Shown in pieces: positions 6,199 through 28,974 of a stretch of 64,000 bases of DNA. Below the pieces are notes generated by a model that saw only the letters and a list, made by a program, of their open reading frames with translations, was not told where the DNA came from and searched no databases. The translations under genes and the position numbers were made by a program. Within the stretch, counting starts at the first letter, position 1, and every line of letters begins with the position of its first letter. This DNA comes from Desulfuromonas sp. (GTDB taxonomy: Bacteria > Desulfobacterota > Desulfuromonadia > Desulfuromonadales > UBA2294). The stretch is taken from assembly GCA_002869615.1 (NCBI GenBank), contig PKUH01000004.1, positions 1 through 64,000 on the forward strand. The letters run 5' to 3'.

Positions 6199-7320
6199 AT
6201 GTCGACAAGTATTCATCAGTTATTAAAAACCATGGTTGAACAGGGGGCGTCTGACCTCCATATTACGACCGGCTCACCGCCGCAGCTACGGATTGATGGC
6301 CATATGGTTCAGATGAAGCTGGCGCCCTTGAATCCGCCCGATACCAAACAGCTCTGTTATTCGATTCTGACCGATGCCCAGAAACGTCGCTTCGAAGAGG
6401 AGAATGAACTCGATTTCTCCTTCGGTGTCAAAGGTTTGGCCCGCTTTCGCGGCAACATTTTCATGCAACGTGGCGCTCTCGCCGGAGTCTTTCGCCTGAT
6501 TCCTTTCAAGGTTCTGACCTTCGATGAGCTTGGACTGCCGCCGGTTGTTCGCCAAATATCGTCCAAGCCGCGTGGTCTCGTCCTGGTGACCGGTCCGACC
6601 GGTTCCGGCAAGTCGACCACCCTGGCGTCGATCATTGATGAAATCAATACGGTTCGCAGCGAGCATATCATCACGGTTGAGGATCCGGTCGAATTCCTCC
6701 ATCCGCACAAGAAATGCCTGGTTAATCAACGTGAGGTCTGAGCTGATACCCACTCTTTCAAAAAGGCGCTGAAATATATTCTGCGACAGGACCCGGATGT
6801 TGTTCTGCTCGGTGAGCTTCGCGACCTCGAAACGATCGAGGCGGCGTTGACCATTGCCGAAACCGGCCATCTCTGTTTCGCGACGCTGCATACCAACGGC
6901 GCGCTTCAGTCGATTAACCGTATTGTTGATGTTTTCCCGACCCACCAGCAGCAACAGGTTCGCACCCAGCTCTCCTTTGTTCTTGAGGGGATTATGTCGC
7001 AGACTCTCGTCCCCCTTGCATCAGGTAAAGGGCGGGCCCTCGCTTTGGAGGTCATGGTCCCGAACATGGCAATTCGCTCCTTGATCCGTGAAGACAAGGT
7101 TCATCAACTCTATTCACAGATGCAGATGGGGCAGGAAAAGTATGGCATGCAGACCATGAACCAGGCCCTGTTCATGCTTTTCCACAAAAAACAGATTACG
7201 CTGGAAATAGCAATGTCGCGTTCGTCTGATACGGAAGAGTTAAAACAGATGATTGCCAACCCGCAGGCGGTGATCAAGCGTCAGGTTTCGACTTCACCTG
7301 CAGGTGGCGGCAGACAGTAG
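6199..7320 (+). pseudogene. pilT: Pilus retraction ATPase PilT with an internal in-frame TGA
   Basis: Retraction motor of the type IV pilus, opposing PilB. The frame reads as a normal PilT of 373 codons plus stop except for TGA at 6739-6741 (codon 181). Upstream lies the N-terminal domain and Walker [10 protein letters not shown]; downstream, in the same frame, come HSFKKALKYILRQDPDVV, Walker B LLGELRD, the His box ETGHLCFATLHTNGA and the C-terminal lobe to TAG at 7318-7320. In homologues the residue between REV and ADTHS is Gly, so a single GGA to TGA change explains the stop. A product ending at 180 residues would lack Walker B and be inactive. No other damage is visible. Nonsense mutation, read-through or assembly error are all possible. 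Confidence 0.88.
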
Positions 7321-10277: not shown

Positions 10278-11678
10278 GTGGCAAACAGTTATCGAATCCT
10301 TGTCGTTGATGATGAAGCGAGCATGCGTGATTTTCTCAGCATCATGTTGCATCGCGAAGGTTACCATGTTGATGCTGCAATCGACGGTGCCCAGGCGGTC
10401 AAACATCTCAGAGATCACAATTACGACCTGGTCATCAGCGACATCCAGATGCCGCAGCTCAATGGTCTCCAGTTGCTCAAGCATGTCAAGGAGCGCAATC
10501 CGGAAACCGTCGTTATCATGATCACCGCTTTTTCGAGTACCGAGGAAGCGGTTGAAGCGATGAAGCAGGGGGCGTATGACTATATTACCAAGCCGTTTAA
10601 GAACGAGGAGATCAGGCTGGTCATTAATAATGCTCTGGAGCGCAAGCTGTTGCGCCAGGAAAACGTTGAGCTGAAAAAAGCACTGGAGCAGCGCTATTCC
10701 TTCTCCGGGCTGATCGGCAAGAGCAAGCCGATGCAGTAGGTCTTCAACCTGATCGAGAAGGTTGCAGCGAGTAAGGTCAATGTCTTGATTACCGGGGAGA
10801 GTGGCACCGGCAAGGAACTGGTCGCCAGGGCGGTTCACTACCAGTCAGAACGCAAGGGGCAGCCTTTCATGCCGATCAATTGCGGCGCCATCCCGGAGAA
10901 TCTCCTCGAAAGCGAGCTGTTCGGACATGAAAAGGGTTCTTTTACCGGGGCCAATGTACAAAAAAAAGGTCTTTTCGAAATTGCTCATGGCGGGACGATC
11001 TTTCTCGATGAAATCGCCGAGCTGCCACAGATGATGCAAGTCAAGCTGCTGCGGGTTCTGCAGGAACAGGAGATCCGCCGAGTCGGCGGCACTGAGAATA
11101 TCAAGATAGACGTCCGCCTGATTGCGGCGACCAACAAGGACCTCGACCAGGAGGTCAGCGCCAATCGGTTTCGCGAAGACCTCTTTTACCGGCTTAATGT
11201 TATTCCGCTGCACCTTCCGGCCTTGCGCGATCGGCGCGAGGATATTCCGATGCTGATCGAACATTTTGCCCAGCAGATCAGCGGCAAGGATGAACTCAAA
11301 ATCGAGGAGACCGCGCTGCGACTGATGCTTGATTACAGCTGGCCCGGAAATGTCCGTGAACTGGAGAATGCGATTGAACGATGCCTGGTTCTCGGCATCG
11401 ATGATGAATTGACCGAGGAATGTTTGCCTGCACAGATTCGGAATGGTTCAGCTCGACCCTGTGTCAGCCTTGATCAACTGCCGGAGTCAGGTTTGGATCT
11501 CGATGCTTATCTCGGCGGGATTGAAAAGGAGATTCTGCTCAAGGCGCTCGAGCGTGCCGGCGGGGTTCGCAAAAAAGCGGCCGAACTGCTCGGCATCACC
11601 TTCCGATCAATCCGCTACCGTCTTGCCAAGTATGGTCTGGATGATGAGGATGAAGACTCGTTGATAAAGAATATCTGA
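10278..11678 (+). pseudogene. pilR: PilR-type sigma-54 response regulator with an internal in-frame TAG
   Basis: NtrC-family activator expected to switch on the sigma-54 pilA promoter. Translation starts at GTG 10278 behind AAGGAG (10264-10269). The receiver domain carries Asp55 in LVISDIQMP. The frame then meets TAG at 10737-10739 (codon 154), in the linker before the AAA+ domain, and continues without other damage through Walker A GESGTGKE, the sigma-54 contact loop GSFTGA, Walker B GGTIFLDE, and a Fis-type helix-turn-helix at the C-terminus. A product ending here is a lone receiver domain without ATPase or DNA binding. One base change from GAG, AAG or CAG would create the stop. Full reading gives 466 codons plus stop. 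Confidence 0.86.
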
Positions 11679-12683: not shown

Positions 12684-12701
12684 GTTTCCGGGAGTGATTG
12701 G

Positions 12702-13505: not shown

Positions 13506-14359
13506 TTCGCTATCTGCTTTTTATAGCTCTGTTCGGTACCCTTGTTCTGGTGACGATCCCCTTTTCCGGTTATATGAATGACCGGCCGGTCGCGCTGAAG
13601 CTCGGTTATACTCCGCGTGCCGAAGTCCTTAAAATTGTCTCGGGCGAACACCGTTACCTGGTGGCGAGTACCAACGTAATTCGTGTTCTGTTCTACTTCG
13701 GATCGCTCAATGAGGAATATGCGAATCGGAATCTGACTCCGCCTGAATATGCCCGAATGTATGAAACCCTGATTCAATCGGTCAAGTTGGATCCCTATAA
13801 TCAGGATCTTTATTATTTCGCCCAGGCGACATTCACCTGGGATGTCGGCCGTATTAAAGAAGTGAACAAACTGCTTGAATACGGAATGAAATACCGTGTT
13901 GACGACTTTAACCTGCCGTTTTGGGCAGGATTCAATACTGCATATTTCCTGAAGGATTATGACAAGGCAGCCGCTTATATGCAAAAGGCGGCAGAAATTT
14001 CAAACTCACCATTTTTTACCAAGCTGGCGGCCCGCTTTTTCCATGAGGCGGGCCGGAATGACCTCGGTATTGCCTTTCTCGATACCATGATCCGGACAGC
14101 CAAGGATCGTAAAATAAAAGATTCTTTATTGCTGCGCAAAAGAGCATTAGCCCAATTGCGGAATCTGCAGCAGTTAGTTGACCGGTTTCATGGTGAGACC
14201 GGCCTATGGCCTGAGACGATTGATACTCTGAAGGATAAAGGCTACCTCGATTTCATTCCAGCCGACCCGTATGGAGGGGTGTATATTATTGAACCGACAG
14301 GAACCGTTAAGACAACAAGCAACCTGACTTTTTCTCGCGACAATGAGAAAGAAAACTAG
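13502..14359 (+). CDS. Membrane-anchored TPR-like protein of the ABC transporter operon
   Basis: Function not recognised. It starts at TTG 13502, overlapping the permease stop in a TTGA, with GGAGG at 13489-13493. One N-terminal transmembrane helix (about 4-22) precedes a periplasmic helical region (about 85-205) with TPR-like spacing (KLDPYNQDLYYFAQ, DYDKAAAYMQKAAE). The C-terminal 60 residues (ETGLWPETIDTL, IPADPYGGVYII) resemble the C-terminal part of pseudopilin-type proteins. Position between permease and ATPase suggests it is an accessory of that exporter. Confidence 0.6.
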   Translation: MIRYLLFIALFGTLVLVTIPFSGYMNDRPVALKLGYTPRAEVLKIVSGEHRYLVASTNVIRVLFYFGSLNEEYANRNLTPPEYARMYETLIQSVKLDPYNQDLYYFAQATFTWDVGRIKEVNKLLEYGMKYRVDDFNLPFWAGFNTAYFLKDYDKAAAYMQKAAEISNSPFFTKLAARFFHEAGRNDLGIAFLDTMIRTAKDRKIKDSLLLRKRALAQLRNLQQLVDRFHGETGLWPETIDTLKDKGYLDFIPADPYGGVYIIEPTGTVKTTSNLTFSRDNEKEN

Positions 14360-14372
14360 AGGTGTTGATGCA

Positions 14373-15281
14373 ATGACAACTTCTGCGATCCGGATTGAAA
14401 ACCTTGGAAAGTTGTACCGTGGCAAAAAACGACAGTTGGTTCATGCTTTAACAGACCTGAACCTGCAGGTTGGTCAGGGCGAAGTATTTGGGTTTCTCGG
14501 TCCGAACGGCGCCGGAAAGAGTACAACTATCAAGCTACTTCTGGGGCTAATCCAACCAACCAGCGGCGGAGCCTTCCTGTTCAATCAGCCGGTTTCAGAT
14601 GCTTCTTCACGCTTAAGAGTAGGTTATCTTCCGGAAAACCCGGCTTTCTATGATTTTTTGAGTGCCCGCGAGTATCTGTATTTCGTTGCCGGTTCTTTCG
14701 GTATGAAAAAAGAACACATAAAGGAACAATCTGATCGAGTTCTCGAACTACTGCAACTGACAGACGCAGCCAATCGTCCGGTCAGTACCTATAGTAAGGG
14801 CATGGTGCAGCGGCTCGGCCTTGCCCAGACCCTGGTCCATGACCCGGATCTTTACATTTTCGATGAGCCGATGAGCGGCCTTGATCCGATGGGGCGGGCT
14901 CTGGTCAAGAAGATAATTCGAGATCTGAAAGGACAGGGTAAAACAGTCTTCTTCAGTAGTCATATAACGGCTGATGTTGAAAGTGTCTGCGATCGTATTG
15001 GTATAATCGTTAAAGGAGAACTTCGCAGTGAGGAGTCAGTCGGAACTCTTTTGCACGAGAGTATTCAGGGATATTCAGTCTGGGTGCGTGGACCGATTGA
15101 AGTGGACGGGTATCAGGGGCAGCTGGTTGCTGACGATGTATCGGCATTCAGGGTTCCCAAGGAACAGCTTGATCTTTTTATTGCGGCCATTGTCGCCCGG
15201 CAGGATTGCTCGATTCAACTTGTTGAACCAGAACGCAAGGACCTGGAAGCGTTTTTCCTTGATGTTGTGGCGAGGAACTGA
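14373..15281 (+). CDS. ABC transporter ATP-binding protein (XapD-like)
   Basis: Cytoplasmic ATPase for the permease at 12702. ATG 14373 follows GAGGTG by 8 nt and is preferred over the in-frame ATG at 14343 inside the previous gene. The 302-residue product has Walker A GPNGAGKST (about 43-51), signature YSKGMVQRLGLA, Walker B LYIFDEPMSGLDPMG, and H-loop SSHITADVE. The C-terminal extension (about 225-302) is typical of ABC-2 exporters. G. sulfurreducens xapD (GSU1501), in the same position relative to pilA, encodes an ATPase needed for matrix polysaccharide and cytochrome anchoring; equivalence is inferred from synteny. Confidence 0.88.
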   Translation: MTTSAIRIENLGKLYRGKKRQLVHALTDLNLQVGQGEVFGFLGPNGAGKSTTIKLLLGLIQPTSGGAFLFNQPVSDASSRLRVGYLPENPAFYDFLSAREYLYFVAGSFGMKKEHIKEQSDRVLELLQLTDAANRPVSTYSKGMVQRLGLAQTLVHDPDLYIFDEPMSGLDPMGRALVKKIIRDLKGQGKTVFFSSHITADVESVCDRIGIIVKGELRSEESVGTLLHESIQGYSVWVRGPIEVDGYQGQLVADDVSAFRVPKEQLDLFIAAIVARQDCSIQLVEPERKDLEAFFLDVVARN

Positions 15282-17014
15282 TGTCATATTTGCGGCCCGG
15301 GTTTGACCCGATAGTGATTGCGGTCATCGTTCTTGGTGTTTTTTCACCAATCGTTTACGCCGGCTTCAACTCGGTTGATGATATGGTTCTGGTCACATTC
15401 CTGACGAACCTGGATAGCTGGTCACTGGCCGACATTTTTTTTCCAGAGCATGGTTATTATTACCGTCCACTGTTATCCATTACGTTTTATTTTGATCGGA
15501 TCTTGTGGGACCTGAGCCCACAAATCATGCACTTTGAAAATGTATTGTTACATCTTGTAAACGCTCTTCTGGTCTATGCAATTGTTTTTCAGGTTCTTCC
15601 GAAAAATTCAAATTCCAGGCGTATCTGGGCAATTGGTGCATCTTTGTTATTTGGATGCCACCCGATTGTAACAGAATCGGTTAACTTGATTTCAGGACGG
15701 ACAGATTTGCTGGCCGGTGTTTTTATTCTGTTGTCCATATTATTTCTCCTGCGATCAGCACGCACTGAAAATAAATTATTACTTCTTCTCTCGGGGGTCT
15801 TTTTTTTTGTTGCTTGTCTCGCCAAGGAAGTTTCCGTTTTTTACTATCCTGCCGCTCTTGCTTTGTCGATTGCATCGTTCACTCATGGCACCGGTTTCTG
15901 GCGAAAGATCGCGTTGCGACAACAGTATCTGTATGTATTCAGCTTCACTTGTGCCGGCTATTTTCTTCTCAGATATCATGCACTGAAAAGTTCTGACAGT
16001 GGTGTTTCCAGGCTGGCTGAGAGTATTGGTGGCCAGTCTGAAAGCGTGTTCGATACTTTGCGTATCAGCCTCAAGGTGATGGGGTTTTACACCAAAAAGC
16101 TGTTCATCCCTTGGCCTCTAAACTTTGGCATTATCAATGTTTCTGATTACTATCTCGTGGTCGGAGTCGGTCTTGTCCTGTTATGTATCGTCTGGTTGTT
16201 GCGAAACGATCTTGTTTCGGCTTTTTTTCTGACAGCGACCTGTATTACTTCAGCCGCGCTTCTGGTCGTACTTGGAAAGGCTGCCTGGACACCAATTGCT
16301 GAACGTTATCTTTATATTGCCACTGCGCCTTTTGTTCTGGGTTCAGTTGCATGGTTGCATCAATCTAGGAATAAATGGTTTAAAGAAAAAGTTTTAGCCT
16401 GGGGAGGGGTTGTTCTTCTCACTGTTTTTGTTGTGACAACAGGAAATCGAAACTACATTTGGCAGGACAATCTACTGTTGTTTGAAGATACGGTCAGGAA
16501 ATCTCCGGCGTTCATCCCCGCAAAAAACCAGTTGGCCGATGCATTGATTAAAAAAGGGCGCATTGAAGAAGCACAAATTTTAATAGCCGAGGTTTATCAG
16601 AAATCTGAAAACAAAGATTATTCATCCGGTTATATTAACCAGGCAAGATCATTGGCTCATGACGGGAAGCTGGAGAGCGCCAGAGCTATTTTGGTCGAAA
16701 GACGCGACAGTGGAGAAACGGTTGATCCAAATCTGTACCAGGAGTTGGTCATGATTAACTTCAAACGGTTGGAAGCGACGAAAGAAGCGACAGCAAGGCG
16801 AGCGATTTACCAGGAAAACCTTCAGTTACTCAGTTCATATCATGCCATGCGTCCAGGCCCCTTTAATCTTTATCGAATCGGTAAAGCACATCTGTCACTT
16901 GGAAACCGAGAAAAAGCAAAGGAATATTTCGAAAAGGCTTATCAGCAGGCACCTGAAACAGCTCATTATCGTGAACCGGCCCGCAGATTAGCAGAACGGT
17001 TGGGTCATAAATGA
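15281..17014 (+). CDS. TMTC-like GT-C membrane protein with C-terminal TPRs
   Basis: Probable lipid-linked-sugar glycosyltransferase or polysaccharide-associated membrane protein. The 577-residue product has about ten transmembrane helices (residues 10-395), an early luminal loop with the acidic pair FNSVDDMVLV, and the segment HPIVTESVNLISGRTDLL, which is characteristic of TMTC/DUF1736-type mannosyltransferases. The remaining 170 residues are TPR-like (AEVYQKSENKDYSSGY, REKAKEYFEKAYQQAPE). It shares one base with the previous stop (TGATG) and overlaps the next gene by ATGA, so translation is probably coupled. The exact sugar is unknown. Confidence 0.65.
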   Translation: MSYLRPGFDPIVIAVIVLGVFSPIVYAGFNSVDDMVLVTFLTNLDSWSLADIFFPEHGYYYRPLLSITFYFDRILWDLSPQIMHFENVLLHLVNALLVYAIVFQVLPKNSNSRRIWAIGASLLFGCHPIVTESVNLISGRTDLLAGVFILLSILFLLRSARTENKLLLLLSGVFFFVACLAKEVSVFYYPAALALSIASFTHGTGFWRKIALRQQYLYVFSFTCAGYFLLRYHALKSSDSGVSRLAESIGGQSESVFDTLRISLKVMGFYTKKLFIPWPLNFGIINVSDYYLVVGVGLVLLCIVWLLRNDLVSAFFLTATCITSAALLVVLGKAAWTPIAERYLYIATAPFVLGSVAWLHQSRNKWFKEKVLAWGGVVLLTVFVVTTGNRNYIWQDNLLLFEDTVRKSPAFIPAKNQLADALIKKGRIEEAQILIAEVYQKSENKDYSSGYINQARSLAHDGKLESARAILVERRDSGETVDPNLYQELVMINFKRLEATKEATARRAIYQENLQLLSSYHAMRPGPFNLYRIGKAHLSLGNREKAKEYFEKAYQQAPETAHYREPARRLAERLGHK

Positions 17015-17868
17015 AACAAAATGCCTACTACAGAATTTTACGTCCACACCAGTGGTTGAAAAACCTTCTCTTACTGTTCCCACCTTTTCTAGGCGGAACC
17101 CTTACCGGAGTAACAGCGCTACCCATACTTCTGGCTCTTGGCAGTTTCTCGGCTGCGGCCAGTATGGTCTATGTGCTTAATGACCTGACCGATATTGAGT
17201 CCGATCGGAACCATCCACGTAAAAAGTTTCGACCACTTGCCTCCGGTGAGCTTTCCGGTAAAGCTGCCGTCATACTCGCCTTGCTGTTGGGACTGGTTGC
17301 ATTTGCTTGCGCCACTCAACTGTCAATAAAATTTGTCATTATCATTATCAGCTACATAGTTGTTTCCCTGGCCTATTCATGGCGTTTAAAAAATATACCG
17401 TTGGTCGAACTTTTCTGTGTTGTCAGCGGTTTCCTGTTACGACTCATGGCTGGTGGTGAGGCTTTCGGAGTGACGGTCTCAGACTGGCTTTTCCTGAGCG
17501 TTTTCCTTCTGGCCCTGTTCCTGGTGTCAGGTAAGCGTTTAAGTGAACTGCGTCACGAGGGAGGAGAGTCGTCTTACCGGATCAGGCCAGTTCTCGCTGA
17601 CTATCCTCAAGGTTTTCTTGAAGGAGCGATGCTGGTTTCCGGAGCAGCGGTTCTGGTGACCTACACCCTGTATGTGATTGGTCATCAGAGAAGTATCTGG
17701 GTCATTCCAATATGCTGTTTCGGACTACTTGCTTTTTTCCGGAGGGTTCTGTCCGGTCGGGGGGGCGACCCGACCCACGCTTTACTGCGTGACCCGATGC
17801 TCTTTCTCTCCGGCTTATCCTGGGTTGTTTTTGTTGCCTGGGAGATTTATGGTCAACTATGGAAATAG
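17011..17868 (+). CDS. UbiA-family prenyltransferase, DPPR-synthase-like
   Basis: Likely transfers a sugar phosphate to polyprenyl phosphate. The 285-residue membrane protein has about eight helices and the Asp-rich motif NDLTDIESDRNHPRKKF followed by RPLASG. This motif is closer to decaprenyl-phosphate phosphoribosyltransferases (mycobacterial Rv3806c type) than to quinone-pathway UbiA. The basic RPHQWLKNLLLLFPP start also fits that subgroup. Its place among glycosyltransferases argues for polysaccharide precursor synthesis, possibly a ribose or arabinose donor. The epimerase genes that would convert ribose to arabinose are not in the window. Confidence 0.75.
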   Translation: MKQNAYYRILRPHQWLKNLLLLFPPFLGGTLTGVTALPILLALGSFSAAASMVYVLNDLTDIESDRNHPRKKFRPLASGELSGKAAVILALLLGLVAFACATQLSIKFVIIIISYIVVSLAYSWRLKNIPLVELFCVVSGFLLRLMAGGEAFGVTVSDWLFLSVFLLALFLVSGKRLSELRHEGGESSYRIRPVLADYPQGFLEGAMLVSGAAVLVTYTLYVIGHQRSIWVIPICCFGLLAFFRRVLSGRGGDPTHALLRDPMLFLSGLSWVVFVAWEIYGQLWK

Positions 17869-18911
17869 TTTTTTTTCGACATTCCCTGTTGAGTCGTGGC
17901 GGCGACAAGATGGTTCTGTCTCACGCCGGGTATCTTGCTGATCAGGGGCACTCGGTTACGATACTGACGACTGTTGTTGAAACCGTCTTTCCGATTGATG
18001 ATCGTATCGTAGTGCGATTGACCGGTCGAGCCGGGAAATTAGGCACTCTCTGGTCCGGTTTCGCTACGCGCTTCAGGGCCGACGTCATCGTTGCCGATAT
18101 CATTCCGTTGGCGTTCCTGCTCTTTTTCAGGAATCGTGAAAGGGTCATTTATTTTTCCCAGGATTATGATGAATCCTATTATTTCACCATGGTCCAGCGG
18201 CTATTCATCCGTTCACTATACACCCTGGGCTTGACTTATTTCCGGATTCCGGTCATAGCCGTTTCACATTACCTCGCCGATCTTCTCCGGAATCGATTCC
18301 ATGCCAAGGTTATCGTGGTTACCAACGGAGTTGATACGAAGGTGTTTTATCCCGAGCACGACCCGGACCTGGCCTTGTTGAAGAATGATAAAAAGGCAAT
18401 AGTATCACTGTCGAGGAGTGATGCCCGTAAAGGTTTTGATGTCGCACAGAAAGTTCTGCAGAAAGTCGGCTCGGAATGTATTGATGATTTTGTCGTCTGG
18501 ACCGTCGGAGAATCTTGCGAGTCGGCTTTCCCGGGTTTGCATCATCGCCATTTCGGTTATGTAAAAGAGGATGAACTTCGTCGGATTTTCAGCAGCGCAG
18601 ACCTTTTTCTGTACCCGTCCCGTCACGAGGGTTTCCCTTTGATGGCGTTGGAAGCATTGGCGTGTGGTTGCCCACTCGTGACGACCGACGCCGTCAATGT
18701 GGTGAAAAACGATGTCGAGGCCCTGGTTAGCCCGGTCGAAGATGTTGGGTCACTGGCGGAAGATGTTAAAAAAGTCCTGGCCGATGAACGTCTTTCGGAC
18801 CGTCTCTCCCGGGCCGGGTTTGATTTTGTCGAAAAAAACACCCTCGCGCAGTCCAGGGCGAATTTCTGCCTGGCCCTGGATGGGATTTTTAAAGGCCGGC
18901 CATGCCGCTGA
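17859..18911 (+). CDS. Glycosyltransferase family 4
   Basis: Cytoplasmic GT-B retaining glycosyltransferase acting on polysaccharide intermediates. The 350-residue sequence shows the family N-terminus (HSLLSRGGDKMVLSHAGYLADQGH), the acceptor-side hinge VVTNGVDTKVFYPE at about 150, and the nucleotide-sugar-binding EGFPLMALEALACGCPLVTT block with the conserved Glu pair at about 253-261. It overlaps the UbiA-family gene by 10 nt and the next gene by 10 nt, so the operon is very tight. The donor sugar cannot be told from the sequence. Confidence 0.88.
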   Translation: MEIVFFRHSLLSRGGDKMVLSHAGYLADQGHSVTILTTVVETVFPIDDRIVVRLTGRAGKLGTLWSGFATRFRADVIVADIIPLAFLLFFRNRERVIYFSQDYDESYYFTMVQRLFIRSLYTLGLTYFRIPVIAVSHYLADLLRNRFHAKVIVVTNGVDTKVFYPEHDPDLALLKNDKKAIVSLSRSDARKGFDVAQKVLQKVGSECIDDFVVWTVGESCESAFPGLHHRHFGYVKEDELRRIFSSADLFLYPSRHEGFPLMALEALACGCPLVTTDAVNVVKNDVEALVSPVEDVGSLAEDVKKVLADERLSDRLSRAGFDFVEKNTLAQSRANFCLALDGIFKGRPCR

Positions 18912-19669
18912 CACTTCCGACAATGTCGTTGATCACGGTCTGTCGCAACGCAGAGTTAACGATCGGCGAAACCATCAAAAGCGTTTTGCTCCAGCGGCTG
19001 GAAGGAGTCGAATATATGATTGTCGATGGGGCCTCGACAGATGCGACCGGTGAGATTGTCGCAAAGTTTGTCGGGCAAGGGGTCGACGGTTTCATCAGTG
19101 AGCCGGACGGCGGTATTGCCGATGCCTTCAACAAGGGAGTCTCCAGGTCAACAGGAGATATTATCGGGCTGGTTAATGCCGATGACCAGCTTGTTGAGGA
19201 TACGGTTGCTTTTGTGCGGAGGTACTTTCATGAGCATCCTGATGTTGATGTTGTGCATGGTGATGTTCTTCTTTATGAGGGTCAGCGCTTTCTGAAGCAA
19301 CTGAAACCGGCCGGTTGCTGGTGGCATCCATGGCGCCTGGTGCTGTACAATCATCCGGCGACCTTTGTCAGGCGGCGGGTATATGAGGAACTTGGTGGCT
19401 TTGATGAAAGCTTTCGGATCGCTATGGATGTCGAGATTTTTCTGCGCTGGAACCGTGCCGGAAAACACATTCAATACCTTGAGAGACCATTGGCGATTAT
19501 GCAGGTTGGGGGCGTTAGCGGTGTACAAGCAAAAGCCGGTTTTGATGAATATCGACGAGCCGCAATCCTGCATGGATATTCTCCGGTGCTCGCCAATATC
19601 CAGTATGCTTGCAAGATAATATTAAATACCCTGGTGCTGCTTGGCCGCAGATATCTGCCCGGGATCTAG
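18902..19669 (+). CDS. Glycosyltransferase family 2 (GT-A)
   Basis: Predicted inverting glycosyltransferase. The 255-residue protein starts with MSLITVCRNAELTIGETI, followed by DGASTDATGEIV and SEPDGGIADAFNKGV, then the metal-binding region NADDQ (DxD-like) at about 96. This pattern resembles WcaE-like enzymes of colanic-acid-type clusters. There is no membrane segment until a weak one at the C-terminus. It overlaps the GT4 gene by 10 nt; the methyltransferase follows after 9 nt. Confidence 0.86.
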   Translation: MPLTLPTMSLITVCRNAELTIGETIKSVLLQRLEGVEYMIVDGASTDATGEIVAKFVGQGVDGFISEPDGGIADAFNKGVSRSTGDIIGLVNADDQLVEDTVAFVRRYFHEHPDVDVVHGDVLLYEGQRFLKQLKPAGCWWHPWRLVLYNHPATFVRRRVYEELGGFDESFRIAMDVEIFLRWNRAGKHIQYLERPLAIMQVGGVSGVQAKAGFDEYRRAAILHGYSPVLANIQYACKIILNTLVLLGRRYLPGI

Positions 19670-19678
19670 GATGGAATA

Positions 19679-20605
19679 ATGAGCAAGACTCTCACCGCGC
19701 AGAGGCTGGTTTCTGCTGAAGTTATCGAATGCCCGGCTTGCCGGAAAGGTGTTCAGGCCGTTTCTTATGTCTACCAGGACAACGGGCAGGATTACCCGGT
19801 TTACGATTGTCCGGATTGTTCATTTATGTTTATCCGCCCCTTACCGATTCAGGAGCTGAACGAACGGCAGATGGATTCTCTCGGCGATGCAGAGCTTTTT
19901 GGCAGTGATCTGATGAAATTTCTTCATCGGACGCTCTATATCAACAAGGAGATCCGTACGATCAAAAAACTGACCGGCGGTGATGTTTCGTTGCTGGATG
20001 TCGGTTGTGGTACAGGCTGGATTTCATCGCTCTGGAAAAAAGCCGGATTCCGGGTCGTCGGTCTTGAACCTTCGGCAGTAAGAGGTGCGTACGCCAACGA
20101 GACTTACGGTATTGAGGTGATAAACGACTATGTCGAAAACATCAGCCTGCCGGACCATTTTGACGTTGCCATCCTGCGCCATGTCATCGAACATTTTCAG
20201 GACCCGATTACGGTCATGGAAAAGGTGCGTTTTTCGTTGAACGCTGATGGCCTTGCCCTGGTGGTCGTGCCAAACATCGATTGCATCGGCCGCTATTTAT
20301 TCGGCACTGATTGGGAATGGGTTCTGCCCTGGCATTGTAATTTTTTCAACGAAAAGTCCCTACAGTCAATGCTCGAGACAGCCGGTTTTGAAGTCTTGAG
20401 CATCTACCAGACGGCATCACCACTTTATTACAGCGACAGCCTGGCCAGAAAGATCAATTTGCAGTTCTTCTCACAGATGATTGACAGAATCCGCGTGCCG
20501 GTAATGCTGGCATCTTCTCCGATGGCGATGCTTGGCTTGATACTTGGGCTTGGTGATAACCTGACGGCTGTTGCCCGGGTCGTTAATCAGTCTGAATCTC
20601 CATGA
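19679..20605 (+). CDS. Class I SAM-dependent methyltransferase with N-terminal zinc ribbon
   Basis: Sugar or glycan methyltransferase candidate. The 308-residue product has a CPAC...CPDC pair (about 19-49) that could bind zinc, then SAM motif I LLDVGCGTGW at about 101, motif II VVGLEPSAVRG, and AILRHVIEHF at about 163. This zinc-ribbon plus Methyltransf_11-type layout is common in O-antigen and capsule clusters. It overlaps the flippase start by 4 nt. Confidence 0.8.
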   Translation: MSKTLTAQRLVSAEVIECPACRKGVQAVSYVYQDNGQDYPVYDCPDCSFMFIRPLPIQELNERQMDSLGDAELFGSDLMKFLHRTLYINKEIRTIKKLTGGDVSLLDVGCGTGWISSLWKKAGFRVVGLEPSAVRGAYANETYGIEVINDYVENISLPDHFDVAILRHVIEHFQDPITVMEKVRFSLNADGLALVVVPNIDCIGRYLFGTDWEWVLPWHCNFFNEKSLQSMLETAGFEVLSIYQTASPLYYSDSLARKINLQFFSQMIDRIRVPVMLASSPMAMLGLILGLGDNLTAVARVVNQSESP

Positions 20606-21926
20606 TTGGATTGAAACGATACTTTGAGCACACTTCGTGGATGCTGGCCGAGAAAATTTTGCGTCTTGGCATCGTATTTTTCGTCGGGATCTACGTTGCA
20701 AGATATCTCGGTCCGGAGAAATACGGGATTCTGAATTTCGCTGTGGCGTTTGTTGCCTTGTTTGCTTCCTTTGCCGACCTGGGATTGAACAATATCCTTG
20801 TTCGAGAACTCCTGCACAAAAAAACGTTAAGCGAAAAACTCATAGGGACCTCTTTTTTATTAAAAATAGCAGGTGCCGGGTTTGTACTATTACTGATAAT
20901 TATTTTAACGATCTTTACGTCGTTTGGCCGGCAGACCGAGATTGTTATTTTGATTATATGTGTGGGGCTTGTTTTTCAGGCGTTCAATGTCGTTGAACTG
21001 TTTTTCCAGTCTAAGGTCCAAGCCAAATACCCTGTCTTTGCAAGGGTTTTTTCTGTTGTCCTGGCCAATATCGTTAAAATTCTCCTGATTCTGTTCAAGG
21101 CGCCCCTTGTTTATTTTGCTTTTGCCATAAGTCTCGAATATTTTCTTTTGTCTGTGAGCCTGGTCTATGTTTACTACCGCCAGAAATATTCTGTTTTCAA
21201 CTGGCACTTCGATCGCTCGATTGGGTTTGACCTGATTCGGGAATCCTGGCCTCTGATCCTGTCCGGGGTTGCCGTTTCGGTTTATATTCGGATTGATCAG
21301 GTTATGATTAAAAGCATGTTGGGAGATGAGGCGACAGGGATATACTCGGTGGCGGTCAACTTGAGTGAAGCCTGGTATTTTATTCCGATGACGTTAACGG
21401 CAGCTCTTTATCCTGCACTGGTTAATGCAAAAAAAATGACGAAACGGTTTACTATAAGCGCCTCGAAAAACTTTTTCTTTTCATGGTCTGGATAGCGATA
21501 GCGATAGCGATACCCGTCTCTATTTTCTCGAAAGAAATAATCGGTATTGTTTTTGGAATGCAGTACCTTCAGGCGCATGGTGTTCTTGCAGTTCACTGCT
21601 GGTCGGCATTGTTTGTTTTTATCGGACTCGTCAGTAATCAATGGTTTATTCTTGAGAATCTGAGTCGGTATACGTTATATCGACATCTTCTGGCTGCCGG
21701 TACCAATATTGTACTGAACATGCTGTTTATTCCTGCGTATGGTATCGTGGGAGCTGCTGTTGCGACCCTTTTGACACAGGTAATTACAAGCTATCTGTTT
21801 GATATCATTAACAAGCCGACCCGCATTCTTTTTGTTATGAAAAGTAAATACTTGTTCCTTTTTTTACCGATAACCCTTAAGTTTGTTTTACAGGGGCTTT
21901 TTAAGCGTGACAGGTTGAGATATTGA
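20602..21926 (+). pseudogene. Wzx-type polysaccharide flippase with a frame change at an A8 run
   Basis: Lipid-linked oligosaccharide flippase of the MOP family. Frame 1 (20602-21495) begins with EKILRLGIVFFVGIYVARYLGPEKYGIL, typical of Wzx, and reads well to ALYPALVNAKK. It then becomes unlike the family and stops at 21493-21495. The -1 frame continues from the same point as NDETVYYKRLEKLFLFMVW and runs to TGA at 21924-21926 with the expected last helices. The joint falls in AAAAAAAA at 21429-21436, read GCA AAA AAA ATG. A ninth A, or a -1 slip at A AAA AAA, gives one protein of 441 residues. Real frameshift, phase variation, programmed slippage or a homopolymer error are all compatible. Confidence 0.85.
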
Positions 21927-22015
21927 AATATCTGGTGAGACTGCTTCCCTTGTCACTGATTGGTTTTGGTTTGATCGTTTTCCGAAACCGTTTGCACCGA
22001 GCCGGATTGACGTGA
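21923..22015 (+). CDS. Possible 30-residue membrane peptide
   Basis: Not recognised. A TTG at 21923 overlaps the wzx stop as TTGA and opens a 30-codon frame ending in TGA at 22013-22015. The peptide has a hydrophobic core (LLPLSLIGFGLIVF) and a basic end (RNRLHRAGLT), a pattern that fits a single-helix membrane peptide. The ribosome site is weak (AGGTTGAG). It fills most of the only 100-nt gap in this part of the operon. It could equally be chance. Confidence 0.22.
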   Translation: MKYLVRLLPLSLIGFGLIVFRNRLHRAGLT

Positions 22016-22025
22016 TGGATTCTTA

Positions 22026-22745
22026 ATGGCTGCAATTATTCGGAAATGTGTTTATCTGGTTTTTTTTTACTTGCCTGAACGCCTGGTGGATCAATGTATT
22101 TTTGAAATTGTCGGTTTTTTTGGAAGATTATGCTCACGTTCTTATCAGCCAAATGACCGAGGTGAGGCGTTGATTAATCTTGGTAGCGGTGGTGCCGTCG
22201 TGCCGGGATTTGTTAATATTGATTTTTTCGGGACTGCAGGTGTCGATTATTCTGCAGACCTGAGGTTTCCTTTGAAAATTCCATCGAATACTGCCTGTGG
22301 AATTTTTTCAGAACATACTCTTGAACATTTAACATATACAGAAACAGAAAACTTGTTGAGGGAGTGTTATCGTATTATTGTGCCAGGAGGCGGGATTCGA
22401 ATTGTTGTTCCAGATCTTTCCATTTTCATGCAGAAATACATTGATAATGATCTGGAATGGTTCAGGCACTGGGAACAGTTGTATTTTAAAGATAGTGCGA
22501 ATAGCGAACGGAGTAGCCGGACCCTTCTGTCTCCAGTAGGCGCAGTGAGTTTCGTCACCCAGGAGTATGGCCATGTGTCATGTTGGGATTTTCCTGCCAT
22601 GAAGATTGTCCTGGAAAAGGCAGGTTTCTCAAGGGTGAAGAAAGTTGATTTCAGGGATGGTGAACACACCCACTTGATGATTGAACAGGATTGTAATGCG
22701 AGAAGATTCGTATCGTTATATGTTGAAGCTGAAAAATCAGCTTAA
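22026..22745 (+). CDS. Class I SAM-dependent methyltransferase
   Basis: The 239-residue protein begins with a hydrophobic or amphipathic stretch (VYLVFFYLPERLV), then INLGSGGAVVPGFVNIDFF as the SAM-binding region, ADLRFPLKIPSNTACGIFSEHTLEHL with the post-II SEHTLEHL motif, and the lid sequence LLRECYRIIVPGGGIRIVVPD. This is the form often found in lipopolysaccharide and EPS clusters, where the substrate is usually a sugar. Base composition is slightly more AT-rich than the genes before it. Confidence 0.78.
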   Translation: MAAIIRKCVYLVFFYLPERLVDQCIFEIVGFFGRLCSRSYQPNDRGEALINLGSGGAVVPGFVNIDFFGTAGVDYSADLRFPLKIPSNTACGIFSEHTLEHLTYTETENLLRECYRIIVPGGGIRIVVPDLSIFMQKYIDNDLEWFRHWEQLYFKDSANSERSSRTLLSPVGAVSFVTQEYGHVSCWDFPAMKIVLEKAGFSRVKKVDFRDGEHTHLMIEQDCNARRFVSLYVEAEKSA

Positions 22746-22766
22746 TCAATTGTTGTGGCTTGAACT

Positions 22767-23591
22767 ATGAACGCAAAATGGCTGGCAAAAGAATACATTC
22801 TGAGCGTTCACGCCTGGCTACTTGACAGGTTGTCTGATCCGATCCTGGCTGCTAACAAGATTTTTTGTGATCAGCACAAGGGTGAGCGATGTTTTATTCT
22901 GGGCAGTGGGCCGTCCATTAAAGAACAGGATTTGACCCGTTTGTCAGGCGAGTTGGTGATGACTCAGAATCATTTTCATGCCCATGATGACATCAAGACC
23001 ATTAACCCGTCCTATCACGTTAATGTCCCAATGTACCAACCGGCTGAATACCATGATGACTGGCGACAATGGTTGACTGGAATGAATGAACGTTTACCGA
23101 CCAGTACGACCCTTTTCTTTGGTAAAAACACCAAATGCATGGTTGATGAGCTTGGCTTATTTCAGGGACGTTCATATTATATAAAAACCGGTGGCAGTTT
23201 TGTTACTCGTCGTACGGCACCTGTCGACCTGACCCGTACTATCATGCCGGTTCCGACTGTTTTGACTCAATGTCTTGCCATTGCAATATATATGGGCTTT
23301 TCCGAAATTGTTCTGACCGGATTTGATCTCGATCAGATTTTTTTAAAGATGCAGGATCGATCAAAGGTCCGTTTTTACGGGTTGTCGCCGATTACAGACA
23401 ATGAAGCCGAAGAGACAGCTGAAAAAGAGGCCGCCCAGTACGGTAAAGAATGGTTCTATTGGTGGATGATCTGGCAGCAGTGTTTTTTGTTGAAAGATGT
23501 GGCCGAAAAAAAGGGGATACGGGTTGTCAATGCAACCAGAGGAGGATTGCTGAATGTTTTTCCGCGTAAAATATTTGAGGATATGGTTTGA
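22767..23591 (+). CDS. DUF115/GT42-like protein, possible CMP-sugar-using transferase
   Basis: The 274-residue product has CFILGSGPSIKEQDLTRL at about 39-56, LVMTQNHFHAHDD, and VPTVLTQCLAIAIYMGFSEIVLTGFDLD at about 165-192. The G-GPS motif and the distal AIA-GF-EI-L-G-D block are shared by GT42 sialyltransferases (Cst-II type) and by DUF115/MptE-like proteins of glycan clusters; the C-terminal NATRGGLLNVFPR fits the latter. The next gene encodes a CMP-sugar synthetase-like enzyme, which makes a CMP-sugar donor plausible. Sequence alone does not separate the two families here. Confidence 0.55.
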   Translation: MNAKWLAKEYILSVHAWLLDRLSDPILAANKIFCDQHKGERCFILGSGPSIKEQDLTRLSGELVMTQNHFHAHDDIKTINPSYHVNVPMYQPAEYHDDWRQWLTGMNERLPTSTTLFFGKNTKCMVDELGLFQGRSYYIKTGGSFVTRRTAPVDLTRTIMPVPTVLTQCLAIAIYMGFSEIVLTGFDLDQIFLKMQDRSKVRFYGLSPITDNEAEETAEKEAAQYGKEWFYWWMIWQQCFLLKDVAEKKGIRVVNATRGGLLNVFPRKIFEDMV

Positions 23592-24301
23592 ATAAAATGC
23601 AGGTTATTGCGATCATACCCGCCCGGGGGGGGTCAAAAGGCATCAAGAGGAAGAACCTGGTCACCTTCCGTGGCGAACCGCTTCTGGCGCACTCGATTCG
23701 TCACGCCAGGGAATCAAATTCTGTTGATCGGGTTGTTGTTTCGACAGATGATGAAGAGATTAAGACGGTCGCGTTATCCTGTGGCGCAGAAGTTCCTTTC
23801 ACAAGACCAGGCGAACTGGCCGAGGATCATGTGCTTGATTTGCCTGTTTTTCAGCATGCTCTGAATTTTCTGGAGGAAACCGAAAACTATCGACCTGATC
23901 TTGTCGTTCATTTGCGTCCGACAGCTCCTCATCGCAAGGCTGGCTGGATCGATCAGGCGATCCAGATGCTGCGGGGAGATCCGGCAGCTGATTCTGTGCG
24001 TTCAGTATCGGAACCTGACAAGCATCCTTATCGAATGTTTACCTTGAGCGGAGAGGGATACCTTGATGCAATCATGAAACATCAGCATCCGGTTCCTTAC
24101 CTGTTGCGTCGTCAGGATCTCCCGACGATTTATTATTATAATTGCGTTATTGATGTGACCCGCCCGGAAACGATATTCTCAAAGGATTCCATGACCGGTG
24201 ATCTCATCCTGCCTTTTATAATGAATGCCGATGACGTGATCGACATTGACACGCCTCGCGATCTGAAAATTGCCGAAGCATTGTTCGGGAGTGAAAAATG
24301 A
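23588..24301 (+). CDS. CMP-sugar synthetase-like cytidylyltransferase (NeuA family)
   Basis: Predicted to activate an acidic sugar with CTP. The 237-residue sequence has the nucleotide-binding start IIPARGGSKGIKRKNL, VVVSTDDEEI, HLRPTAPHRKAGWIDQAI and the metal-binding IDIDTPRDL near the C-terminus, all marks of acylneuraminate cytidylyltransferases. TTG 23588 overlaps the previous stop as TTGA and has GAGG 7 nt upstream; ATG 23597 is the alternative. No sugar-acid synthase (NeuB type) is in this window, so the substrate is unknown. Confidence 0.83.
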   Translation: MNKMQVIAIIPARGGSKGIKRKNLVTFRGEPLLAHSIRHARESNSVDRVVVSTDDEEIKTVALSCGAEVPFTRPGELAEDHVLDLPVFQHALNFLEETENYRPDLVVHLRPTAPHRKAGWIDQAIQMLRGDPAADSVRSVSEPDKHPYRMFTLSGEGYLDAIMKHQHPVPYLLRRQDLPTIYYYNCVIDVTRPETIFSKDSMTGDLILPFIMNADDVIDIDTPRDLKIAEALFGSEK

Positions 24302-25476
24302 AGATTCTTGTTCTTGGGGCAGGGATGTATGTAACCGGACGAAATGGGGCCGGCGTTGGAACCATACTTTCATCTCTGGCGGAATCATCGAAATCAATTC
24401 AAATTGACGAAGTCCTAATAGCCGCCCGGAAGCCTGAAAACGACGATCTTGTTGAAAATGCTGCCAATAGAATTAATGGTTTGCTCGGGACCTCCCTTAA
24501 GGTCAGTTTTAAAACGATATCTGGCAATGATTCGGCCGAAGATTTCAGGTTTTTATGTGCCAGTGACGATTTTGATTGCGTAATCCTGTGCGTTCCGGAC
24601 CATCTCCATTTCCGATATGCGGAACAGGCGGTTTTGAACGGGTTGCACACTCTTCTGGTGAAACCTTTCGTGCCGACTCGTGCCGAGGCCGACAGGCTGG
24701 TGACGTTGGCAAAAGAGAAAGCGGTTCATTGTGTTGTCGAATTTCACAAGCGTTTTGATGAGAGCAACCTGTACGCCAAAAAGGTTGTTACTGAAGGAAG
24801 CCTTGGCAAACTTCAGTATATTTCTGTTGCTTACAGTCAGAAAATATCTATTCCGACCGAGACCTTCGAAGCCTGGTCAAACCAAACAAATATTTTTCAA
24901 TACCTTGGTGTCCATTATGTCGACCTTATTTATTTTTTGTCAGGTTACCTTCCCGTCCGGGCAATGGCAGTTGGCACAATGGGCGCGTTATCGGCAAGTG
25001 GTATTGAGACATTTGATTCGGTGCATGCCCAGATTGTCTGGCATCGTCCCGAGAATGACAAAGATTGGTTTGTCTCACAGCTCAACACCAACTGGATCGA
25101 CCCTGTTTCTACTTCTGCGATGTCAGACCAGACGTTTACGATTGTCGGGACTTCAGGAAGGATCGATTGTGACCAGAAAAATCGCGGTATTGAGCTGGTG
25201 ACGGAAAAGACGGGTGTTCAAGCTGTCAACCCCTACTTCTCGGAATATTTGCCTGGTCCGGATGGTGCCCTTGCTTTTGGCGGCTACGGGCACAAGAGCA
25301 TCAATCTGTTCCTTGCTGATGTTGAGAGTTTGCAGGCGGGGGATTTGACCCCGGATGATCTGGTTGACTGTCGTCCTTCGTTTTTGCAATCCAGGGTTTC
25401 CACGGCCGTGATCGAAGCCGTTAATATGAGCCTTACATCAGACTTTGGATGGGTTGAAATTGATGCATTTTCTTGA
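24298..25476 (+). CDS. Gfo/Idh/MocA-family oxidoreductase
   Basis: NAD(P)-dependent sugar oxidoreductase. The 392-residue protein starts with KILVLGAGMYVTGRNGAG (Rossmann loop), followed by DFDCVILCVPDHLHFRYAEQA and the catalytic-region signature LLVKPFVPTRAEADRL (EKP-type Lys at about 121). HxxxD-like residues occur around HYVDLIYFLSG. It overlaps the cytidylyltransferase by ATGA and the following dehydrogenase by 14 nt. In sugar clusters such enzymes oxidise or epimerise nucleotide sugars or free sugar acids; the substrate here is not evident. Confidence 0.8.
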   Translation: MKILVLGAGMYVTGRNGAGVGTILSSLAESSKSIQIDEVLIAARKPENDDLVENAANRINGLLGTSLKVSFKTISGNDSAEDFRFLCASDDFDCVILCVPDHLHFRYAEQAVLNGLHTLLVKPFVPTRAEADRLVTLAKEKAVHCVVEFHKRFDESNLYAKKVVTEGSLGKLQYISVAYSQKISIPTETFEAWSNQTNIFQYLGVHYVDLIYFLSGYLPVRAMAVGTMGALSASGIETFDSVHAQIVWHRPENDKDWFVSQLNTNWIDPVSTSAMSDQTFTIVGTSGRIDCDQKNRGIELVTEKTGVQAVNPYFSEYLPGPDGALAFGGYGHKSINLFLADVESLQAGDLTPDDLVDCRPSFLQSRVSTAVIEAVNMSLTSDFGWVEIDAFS

Positions 25477-26506
25477 TAGCAAGAAACTGGGAACACTGAT
25501 GCGAAAAGAGCTCGAGGCAAGAGGTGCCAGCTCTGAATCTGCTCAACATGTGGTTGCGTCAGTCATTCAGTCATCCTTGCGGGGAGTTGATTCTCACGGC
25601 ATCAATCTGTTTCCACATTATTGCCACGCTGTCGAAGTCGGGCGGGTTAAAGGCTTTCCGGAATTTACCTGGGAACAAACTGCTGCCGCGACATCCCGGA
25701 TGGATGCAGACCATGCCTTTGGACATTATTCCGGTGCTGCAGCAATGGATCGAGCCATCGCAATGGCTTCGGATTCAGGCGTAGGTACCGTCAGCGTTTC
25801 GAATTCGACACACTTCGGAGCAGCAGCCTATTTTGGTTTACGGGCAGCGGAGAACGACTACGTTGGTTTCTCGTTCACCAACGCCGATGCTTTGGTTAAA
25901 GCCCATGGAGCAAAAGAAGCTTTCTTCGGTACGAATCAGATCTGCTTTACGGCTCCGATGATGTCGGAAGATCCGTTTTGTCTCGATATGGCAACCTCAA
26001 TGGTTTCCTGGAACAAGGTTATGAATTACCGCATGAGCGGTACTCAAATGCCTTCAGGCTGGGCATTTGATGCAGATGGTGTTGATGTCGTTGACCCTGA
26101 CCTTGCTGTATCTCTGAGTCCAGCCGGAAGTTACAAGGGGTTTGGACTGGGTATGATGGTTGATATATTGTGCAGTCTGTTGGCAGGCGGAAAAATCAGC
26201 AAGGATCTCAGGCCTATGTATCAGCCGCCGCTTGATAACAGCAAAAGAGAAATAAGACATTTTTTTATGGCTGTAGATATTTGCAGGTTTACCGATTTGT
26301 CAATGTTCAAGCAACAGCTTCAGGAGATGGTCGCCAGAATCAGATTGTTAACTCCGAACGATACGGAGCAGCCTGTTATGGTTGCTGGAGATCCGGAGAA
26401 AAGTTCAAAAGAGCATCGGTTGATAAACGGTATACCAATTGGAGACCAGAGGTTTCTAGAATTTCTAGATATTTCCGAAAAGTTTGAGACGGTACTGATG
26501 TCATGA
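25463..26506 (+). CDS. Ldh-family (malate/L-lactate/ureidoglycolate type) dehydrogenase
   Basis: NAD(P)H-dependent 2-keto-acid reductase family, not the classical lactate dehydrogenase fold. I start at ATG 25463 (MHFLDSKKLGTLM); the upstream TTG at 25445 lacks support. The 347-residue product has GVDSHGINLFPHY near residue 45, the catalytic-region SNSTHFGAAAYFGLRAAE, DMATSMVSWNKV and SPAGSYKGFGLGMMVDIL blocks, all in family order. Coupling to Gfo/Idh and CMP-sugar genes suggests it reduces a keto-sugar acid rather than a central metabolite. That is inference. Confidence 0.8.
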   Translation: MHFLDSKKLGTLMRKELEARGASSESAQHVVASVIQSSLRGVDSHGINLFPHYCHAVEVGRVKGFPEFTWEQTAAATSRMDADHAFGHYSGAAAMDRAIAMASDSGVGTVSVSNSTHFGAAAYFGLRAAENDYVGFSFTNADALVKAHGAKEAFFGTNQICFTAPMMSEDPFCLDMATSMVSWNKVMNYRMSGTQMPSGWAFDADGVDVVDPDLAVSLSPAGSYKGFGLGMMVDILCSLLAGGKISKDLRPMYQPPLDNSKREIRHFFMAVDICRFTDLSMFKQQLQEMVARIRLLTPNDTEQPVMVAGDPEKSSKEHRLINGIPIGDQRFLEFLDISEKFETVLMS

Positions 26507-27681
26507 AGCAACTGGTTGATGTTGTCAATTTTAATGCTGATGCGTCATGCCTTGATTCTGCTGTCTGGCTTGATGCTTTGGACGGTGGTAGCGAATCCCG
26601 GTTTTTTCAATGGCTGGATCTCTATGCCCGGATGGGAAAGAAAGTTGTTCTCGGTTTCCCCGGCGCAACTATCGCTGACATTGCAACCTTCAACCCCGAA
26701 GCGATTGCTCTTATCAACCGAAACCCGGCGGTTTTTGAAATCATTATCAGACCATTCGCGCATGACATTGCACTGCTCCGATTAGGTCAGGGGTTTCAAC
26801 TGAACTATGCAGCTGGAAAGTCAATTATTCTTAAAGAGTTTGAAAACGTAACAGATTATTACCTGCCTCCTGAATTTATGCTGACCAACGAACAGGTAGG
26901 TTTCCTCATTGATAACAGATCCGATGGTGTATTTATCAATCCAGGCCGTTTTGCTGATGAATTGCAATCACGTATTCCTGAGAACCCGTATCAGGTCAAT
27001 GGGTTATTTGACAGATCCTTGAATTGTATCCCTTTTTACAGTTTGCTCACAGGACGTTATCTGCATGCAATTCATAAATTTGATTGTTCACTATGGAATG
27101 AGATGATTTTGGGGTGTCGAAGCCGGCTACTGTTCTCATGGCGAGATGGCGAAAGTGCTTTTCTTGTGCCTAATGGCTTGGCAAGAGAGCGCTTCTGGCT
27201 TCAGCATGAAGATGAAAAAGTCACCAGATGCCATCTTGCCGAGACCCGGATTGATTTTCTTGAAAATTATGAGCTGTCAGAAAATCAATTTAAATCATAT
27301 CCTGTTCATTCATTTACTGCCTGGATGAAAGAATTCAGAATGCTTGGTTTTATTCATAGAGTCAGGGCGATTGAAGAAGGCCTCCATAGGCTCAGTTCTG
27401 AACTGAAAGGCTTTTGGCTTATGACTATCAATTCTGATATTCTTTCTTCTGTTGAAAAAAAGTCTCCAGAAGTGAGTATCAGAATGTCCGATAATGAACA
27501 GAGTCGGATCAATTATACGATCCAGAGAAGTGAGCGCGGTTATGAAGGGGAAGAGTACCTTGCGCTTCTGGAACGTAGTATTGAGAAAATACCACCATCC
27601 GATTATATGCTTAATTCTAAACGATTTCATATGCTCAAATTTCGCGCTAGAATGCAATACCTCTCTGGTTTCGAGATGTGA
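26503..27681 (+). CDS. Unknown 392-residue protein, possibly GH57- or deacetylase-like barrel
   Basis: Not recognised with confidence. It overlaps the Ldh-family gene by ATGA and is the last gene before the operon terminator. The first 200 residues alternate hydrophobic strands and helices in a barrel-like way. A block at about 110-160 (KSIILKEFENVTDYYLPPEFML, here split by eye into KSIILKEF and YYLPPEFML) is reminiscent of the Pro-Glu region of GH57-type hydrolases. The C-terminal 130 residues are helical and charged. No signal peptide is present, so it should act in the cytoplasm, probably on the CMP-sugar or its precursor. Confidence 0.4.
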   Translation: MKQLVDVVNFNADASCLDSAVWLDALDGGSESRFFQWLDLYARMGKKVVLGFPGATIADIATFNPEAIALINRNPAVFEIIIRPFAHDIALLRLGQGFQLNYAAGKSIILKEFENVTDYYLPPEFMLTNEQVGFLIDNRSDGVFINPGRFADELQSRIPENPYQVNGLFDRSLNCIPFYSLLTGRYLHAIHKFDCSLWNEMILGCRSRLLFSWRDGESAFLVPNGLARERFWLQHEDEKVTRCHLAETRIDFLENYELSENQFKSYPVHSFTAWMKEFRMLGFIHRVRAIEEGLHRLSSELKGFWLMTINSDILSSVEKKSPEVSIRMSDNEQSRINYTIQRSERGYEGEEYLALLERSIEKIPPSDYMLNSKRFHMLKFRARMQYLSGFEM

Positions 27682-27814
27682 AAGGGTAGGGCAATTGACA
27701 GTAAACGTTGGCCTAGTTTCTTTTTCGGCTTGATATAGTGTTTTCACAAAGCCTGAAGATGTTACTGAATTGTCGGTTTTAGGGTAGTCTTGGTCCCTTG
27801 TAATGAGAATGAGC

Positions 27815-27862
27815 AAAAAATACTGACCTGCCGTTTATCTGATTTAGCAGCAGTATTTTTTT
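27815..27862 (+). terminator. Strong terminator ending the polysaccharide operon
   Basis: AAAAAATACTG (27815-27825) pairs exactly with CAGTATTTTTT (27851-27861); inside, CTGC (27828-27831) pairs with GCAG (27847-27850). The T-rich right arm acts as the T-tract. It lies 134 nt after the last gene of the locus and rules out the TTG at 27861 as a start codon for the next gene. Confidence 0.8.
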
Positions 27863-27914
27863 GGCCAAAAAGTCTGTGTGCATTGACGTTATGCGGCCAC
27901 CTGGGAATTGCAAA

Positions 27915-28829
27915 ATGAATCTATTTAAATTCGTCAGAAGATTTGCAAAGCTGTTACTGCAGATTGACACTCGACTTCTTCGATTGGAAAAAGCTATTGG
28001 CCGGATAGAGTTAAGGCAATCCATGTCACTGGAGTCGAGTAATTTGAACGATCATGAGTTTCAGGTTTTCTCAGAGTGGGGCGAGGATGGAATTATACAA
28101 TATTTAGTCCGGAATATTGACATCGAAAATAACGTCTTTGTGGAGTTTGGGGTTGAGGATTATTCCGAGTCGAATACAAGGTTCTTGTTGGAAAACAACA
28201 ACTGGTCAGGTCTGGTAATTGATTCGTCTCAGGCAAATGTCGACTGTATTAAAAACGAGTCAATGTATTGGAGGTGCAATCTTAAAGCCGCCTGTGAGTT
28301 TGTTGATATTGAAAATATTAACCGAATTATAGAGAGGAATGGTTTGACCGGGGATATCGGTTTGCTCTCAATTGATATTGATGGAAACGATTACTGGTTG
28401 TGGAACGCAATTAATTGCATATCTCCCCGGATTGTAATTTGTGAGTACAACAGCCTTTTCGGGCCAAGAGCCAAGGTGACGATCCCTTATAATGAAAAGT
28501 TCAATCGGACAGTTGCTCATTATTCCAATCTTTATATGGGTGCTTCGATTGCAGCTTTAACGAGTTTGGCGAGAGAAAAAGGGTATTCACTGGTCTGTTC
28601 AAACAGTGCCGGGAGTAATGCTTTTTTCGTGCGTAATGATGTTGTTGGCGATTTGCCTATTTGTGAGCCTGAAAGTGCTTATGTTGAATCGAAATTCCGG
28701 GAAGCCCGGGATGAGGCAGGGAATTTGACATTTGTTTGCGGTGATGAAAGGCTGTCCCTGATCGGTGATCTTCCCATATTTGATCTTGATACCCAAAAGA
28801 CTGTCAAAATTAAAGAGCTGAAAATTTAA
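27915..28829 (+). CDS. FkbM-like methyltransferase-type protein
   Basis: The 304-residue product (start ATG 27915; the longer frame runs into the terminator) has an N-terminal helical region (about 1-45), then EWGEDGIIQYLV and FVEFGVEDYSESNTRFLLE at about 75-95, and GDIGLLSIDIDGNDYW at about 150. These match the FkbM-like group found in polysaccharide clusters, where members methylate sugars. The classical GxGxG loop is replaced by EFGVED, as is common in this subgroup. The gene is AT-rich compared with its surroundings and stands alone behind a terminator. Confidence 0.6.
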   Translation: MNLFKFVRRFAKLLLQIDTRLLRLEKAIGRIELRQSMSLESSNLNDHEFQVFSEWGEDGIIQYLVRNIDIENNVFVEFGVEDYSESNTRFLLENNNWSGLVIDSSQANVDCIKNESMYWRCNLKAACEFVDIENINRIIERNGLTGDIGLLSIDIDGNDYWLWNAINCISPRIVICEYNSLFGPRAKVTIPYNEKFNRTVAHYSNLYMGASIAALTSLAREKGYSLVCSNSAGSNAFFVRNDVVGDLPICEPESAYVESKFREARDEAGNLTFVCGDERLSLIGDLPIFDLDTQKTVKIKELKI

Positions 28830-28974
28830 ACATTGGAGATAGTTCTCTTTTTGACGTTTTGAAAGAGAAGCTGTTCGTTTGGTACTGTTGGGGGTTAGAG
28901 ATCTGGTTGCTTCTTGTGCCTTTAACGGTATAAAACGTTGCCTACAAACAGTGGGTTTTTATTGGGACCGACAT

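Follow-up and report, generated by a model that had tools for sequence, protein, structure and literature searches.

A gene for a Wzx-type flippase changes reading frame within a run of eight adenines, and the question raised by this locus is whether the break belongs to the organism, as a switch or recoding site in the export of a surface polysaccharide, or to the assembled sequence. The window, by which we mean the whole stretch of 64,000 nt that was analysed (contig C4:1-64000), comes from a draft genome of 3.08 Mb in 121 contigs, 98% complete. The broken flippase gene as a whole occupies window positions 20602-21926 and consists of the following parts:

20602..21495, plus strand: 5′ part of the wzx-type flippase, from the ORF list; matches PF01943 over residues 11-274 with 105.5 bits (cut-off 28.2).
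21429..21436, plus strand: the frame joint, an A8 run with an in-frame A_AAA_AAA heptamer, read from the sequence; homologues are continuous here.
21435..21926, plus strand: 3′ part of the gene, read in the -1 frame; translation gives 163 residues followed by a stop, and PF13440 extends into it when the parts are joined.

Read directly, the run at 21429-21436 is AAAAAAAA. The ORF at 20602-21495 has a product of 297 aa, the first 278 residues of which are flippase and run to ...LYPALVNAKK by way of GCA AAA AAA; the final 19 residues do not follow the family's frame and end at a TAG. From the AAT at 21435, the -1 frame translates as NDETVYYKRLEKLFLFMVW... and stays open until the stop at 21926. 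The initial annotation had placed the joint exactly on the A8 run, with GCA AAA AAA in one frame and the -1 frame read beyond it, and had described A AAA AAA as a classical -1 slippery sequence and a product of 441 residues. On all three points the sequence bears it out, the heptamer being in the correct phase for a -1 slip (GC A_AAA_AAA A TG) and the two halves adding up to 278 + 163 = 441 residues.

Once the halves are joined, the PF13440 score rises from 64 to 78 bits (78.1 against a cut-off of 23), with the match spanning the joint. Both PF01943 and PF13440 are thus matched above their curated cut-offs by a gene within a polysaccharide cluster, and the product shares with known Wzx flippases of the MOP superfamily the family match, the cluster context and a conserved loop motif. 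It is the only PF01943 gene in the draft genome. Coding potential passes from frame 0 to the -1 frame at about 21412-21502, and a frame-switching HMM put the switch at 21438 under a moderate frameshift penalty; under a stricter penalty it made no call, probably because the flippase gene is AT-rich for the genome. Mean identity to 30 homologues is about 42% for the 3′ part and 47% for the 5′ part, and by this comparison the 3′ part appears free of decay. Both halves are otherwise well conserved, as would be expected if the break were erroneous or had arisen very recently. If translated as assembled, the truncated flippase would be missing its C-terminal membrane segments and would not be expected to flip its substrate. 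Just 3′ of the joint, at 21491-21512, lie three and a half copies of the hexamer AGCGAT, coding for IAIAIAI; changes in the length of this repeat would preserve the frame.

We compared the site with about 70 flippase homologues (33–48% identity) that span the joint, all of which are continuous there, whereas in the assembly the frame of the present gene is broken at the Ala-Lys-Lys codons. The loop motif itself, N-A-K-K-x-S-E-x-L-Y-Y, is conserved among the homologues. Its Ala-Lys-Lys is often written GCN AAA AAA/AAG, and A-runs of 5–7 are common. At the site the homologues' longest A-run ranges between 1 and 9, so they preserve no tract as such; in five of them (L049, L054, L055, L066, L070) it reaches 8 or 9 with the frame still continuous. 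An identical in-frame A_AAA_AAA occurs, unshifted, in six homologues (L004, L049, L052, L055, L064, L079), and the heptamer can therefore be understood as simply the spelling of Ala-Lys-Lys. Judged by these relatives, it is inherited coding sequence and not evidence of recoding. In the genome's own long ORFs, which were picked for being open and include wzx itself, the in-frame heptamer was counted 44 times in ~221,000 codons, 13 of them within runs of at least 8. The nearest flippases found are those of Shewanella and Epsilonproteobacteria (47–48% identity), the best of the gene's own order reaching about 40%, which suggests that wzx may have been acquired horizontally. Neither the single further genome of the genus nor the single further one of the family yielded a second copy of the flippase gene.

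The neighbours of wzx are glycosyltransferases, methyltransferases, a UbiA-type prenyltransferase, an ABC exporter and an oxidoreductase, together with a PseF-like cytidylyltransferase whose score stays under the cut-off of its model. This polysaccharide cluster (window 12265-31237) is embedded in a type IV pilus locus, flanked by pilB-pilT-pilC-pilS-pilR-pilA and pilD/pilM-pilQ, of which pilT was confirmed by a family search and the others were named by reading their sequences. Geobacter sulfurreducens likewise has a polysaccharide locus, xap, beside its pil genes (xapD is GSU1501, pilC GSU1493 and pilS GSU1494; PMC5585712). The likeness between xap (PMC5585712) and the wzx cluster is one of layout, in that polysaccharide genes with an ABC exporter adjoin pilB-pilT-pilC-pilS-pilR-pilA. 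Elsewhere in the cluster, homopolymers of 8–9 lie within genes or at their starts (T8 at 15435, T9 at 15800, T8 at 17869, T9 at 22060 and G8 at 23625), and all of these ORFs are open.

How the break is to be read depends on the base-level quality of the assembly, for which stretches totalling 878 kb, about 29% of the genome, were read for lesions. Two of the lesions lie in the window:

6739..6741, plus strand: in-frame TGA inside pilT; TIGR01420 matches 2-177 before it and 180-343 after it, and the residue is Gly in 7/7 aligned relatives.
10737..10739, plus strand: in-frame TAG that interrupts a pilR-like sigma-54 response regulator; the receiver half lies before it and the sigma-54 activator half after it, and the same-genus genome has GAG.

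Others fall outside it. In rpoB (contig C67:7000-12000, L178) an in-frame TAA stands where all 13 of 13 aligned relatives have Glu. A search of the order for rpoB gave a match in 100 of 134 genomes, and among the matches listed only that of the present genome has a stop inside. The genome's only proS (contig C15, L105 5015) also contains a TAA. RNA polymerase subunit RpoB and prolyl-tRNA synthetase are indispensable to cell life, and the consensus must therefore contain base errors. In-frame TAG codons interrupt aconitase (L094 4548) and ptsI (L120 14286), the latter with PEP-utilizers_C matched on either side and at a position that we take to be the Glu of the family motif; further in-frame stops, judged by eye, lie in a response regulator (TAA, L103 7695) and a glutamate-synthase-like gene (TAG, L144 2700). 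Besides wzx, one other gene shifts frame on a homopolymer: bioW, at a T10 run (L155 7238-7247). The count of two frameshifts in the 878 kb is a minimum, the coding-potential scan being insensitive in AT-rich genes.

The stops in rpoB and pilR imply a G>T change relative to the codon of the same-genus genome, and the TGA for Gly in pilT would likewise imply G>T. Our search of the literature on G-to-T artefacts in metagenomes found nothing to the point. An altered genetic code as the common cause of the stops was rejected, since TAA, TAG and TGA are all present, and at different residues. In RpoB, four private substitutions, counting the stop, were seen at positions where the same-genus genome sides with the other relatives; by this measure, among the aligned relatives, a raised missense rate in RpoB was not shown. 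Six further candidate stops (L095, L099, L109, L110, L116, L117) were judged by eye to be natural gene ends or shadow frames, and four candidate frameshifts (L103, L104, L108, L111) overlapping gene starts. Single in-frame stops were also seen in two other genomes of the order, in proS of one (G001) and pilT of the other (G025); base errors of this kind thus appear not to be unique to the present assembly.

We consider it probable that, at the frame joint, the assembled consensus is wrong by one base in the homopolymer, and infer that the A8 itself is erroneous. On this account wzx would be nothing out of the ordinary: the Wzx-type flippase gene of a surface-polysaccharide cluster. Its A-run would arise from the conserved loop Ala-Lys-Lys being written GCA AAA AAA, and a base would have been lost from that homopolymer in the consensus of a draft that carries other impossible-looking stops. 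The uninterrupted frame of all the homologues argues for such an error, as do the lesions in indispensable genes (the TAA codons in rpoB and the sole proS), the further stops in pilT, pilR, ptsI and aconitase, and the T10 frameshift in bioW. A missing base was one of three readings put forward in the initial annotation, with recoding and phase variation, and it has gained weight from the essential-gene stops and bioW; recoding has lost ground to the continuous homologues and the lack of a stimulator. Three considerations weigh against a consensus error. Most of the other lesions look like substitutions, not indels. Other runs of at least 8 within clear ORFs appear intact: among 81 such runs in the 878 kb, 35 lie in clearly intact coding frames, which leaves frequent homopolymer miscalling unsupported, one (bioW) is suspect, and 45, the wzx A8 among them, are uninformative by coding potential. 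Finally, homopolymer length also drives genuine slipped-strand mutation. A one-base error in the A-run nevertheless seems to us the simplest account.

It is also possible, if doubtful, that the A-run has undergone a genuine slipped-strand indel. The outcome would be phase variation, with the flippase switched reversibly on and off within the population, or else surface-polysaccharide export that has recently been lost. A homopolymer tract does sit at the frame joint of a gene for a surface structure, and A8 belongs to the longest class of A-runs in the genome's first 303 kb. With one PF01943 gene only, a change here would have an effect. Surface glycans are a usual target of phase variation (PMC3711429), and homopolymer slips are documented in capsule genes (PMC10249906, PMC13410964). 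For example, a T9 run in wzx and an A9-to-A8 change in gtr6 were mutated in Acinetobacter under phage selection (PMC10249906), and kpsC of E. coli K96 undergoes a reversible 7A–6A change (PMC13410964). These cases share with ours a single-base homopolymer change in a polysaccharide gene, once a wzx, but the variation in Acinetobacter and K96 was seen in sequenced isolates and revertants, whereas here there is one assembled sequence with known errors. Against such an indel, the locus is represented by a single sequence without a length variant, the assembly carries demonstrable base errors, and the relatives have not kept a long tract, with anything from 1 to 9 A's at the site and only five of them at 8 or 9. 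We regard it as unlikely that A8 is real and that Wzx production is switched within the population, or leaks, at the tract, by mixed tract lengths in the DNA or by slippage in the transcript.

Transcriptional slippage taken separately, in which a real A8 would put a minority of mRNAs into the continuous frame so that some full-length flippase is made, is very improbable here. It is known for tssM of Citrobacter, where 11 A's give 20–25% (PMC4256274), and has been proposed for homopolymer frameshifts of insect endosymbionts (PMC3017870). Like wzx, tssM1 of Citrobacter rodentium has its A-run shortly 5′ of a premature stop, with the downstream frame coding for the remainder; it differs in having 11 A's and demonstrated products (PMC4256274), as against 8 A's in wzx. 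In bacteria, slippage has been described as efficient once a run reaches 9 (PMC5009743), and the tract at the wzx joint, with 8 A's, falls short of the ~9 or more A/T on which it depends. Moreover, the A8 would have to be real first.

Programmed -1 ribosomal frameshifting at A_AAA_AAA, yielding the 441-residue flippase beside the 297-residue product, shares with the dnaX and IS-element sites at A_AAA_AAR (PMC4066793) an X_XXY_YYZ heptamer in the right phase at the joint, and A_AA.A_AA.A is among the motifs for which unstimulated shifting in E. coli exceeds 0.10% (PMC4066793), but we reject it as extremely improbable, since even the best motifs reach only ~0.3% there without stimulators (PMC4066793), no stimulator was found, and the frame transition is not conserved, about 70 homologues being continuous, six of them through the same heptamer. 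No Shine-Dalgarno-like word occurs within 21 nt upstream of the heptamer. Downstream, an 84-nt stretch folds at -13.3 kcal/mol against a shuffle mean of -16.25 (z +1.07), with 170 of 200 shuffles folding as well, and one of 49 nt, with a z of -1.04, is no more structured than shuffles either.

Taken at its most probable, the finding bears on how this genome is read. Because no living cell can carry the stops in rpoB and proS, the other gene breaks in the assembly, those of pilT, pilR, wzx and bioW, should not be taken as biology without reads. If the A8 is nonetheless real, wzx would add another polysaccharide exporter switched by a homopolymer to a type of event that is already known, here in an environmental bacterium. 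And if the population does switch at the tract, a surface or pilus glycan would be exported phase-variably by this environmental bacterium, a member of a Desulfuromonadales-type order.
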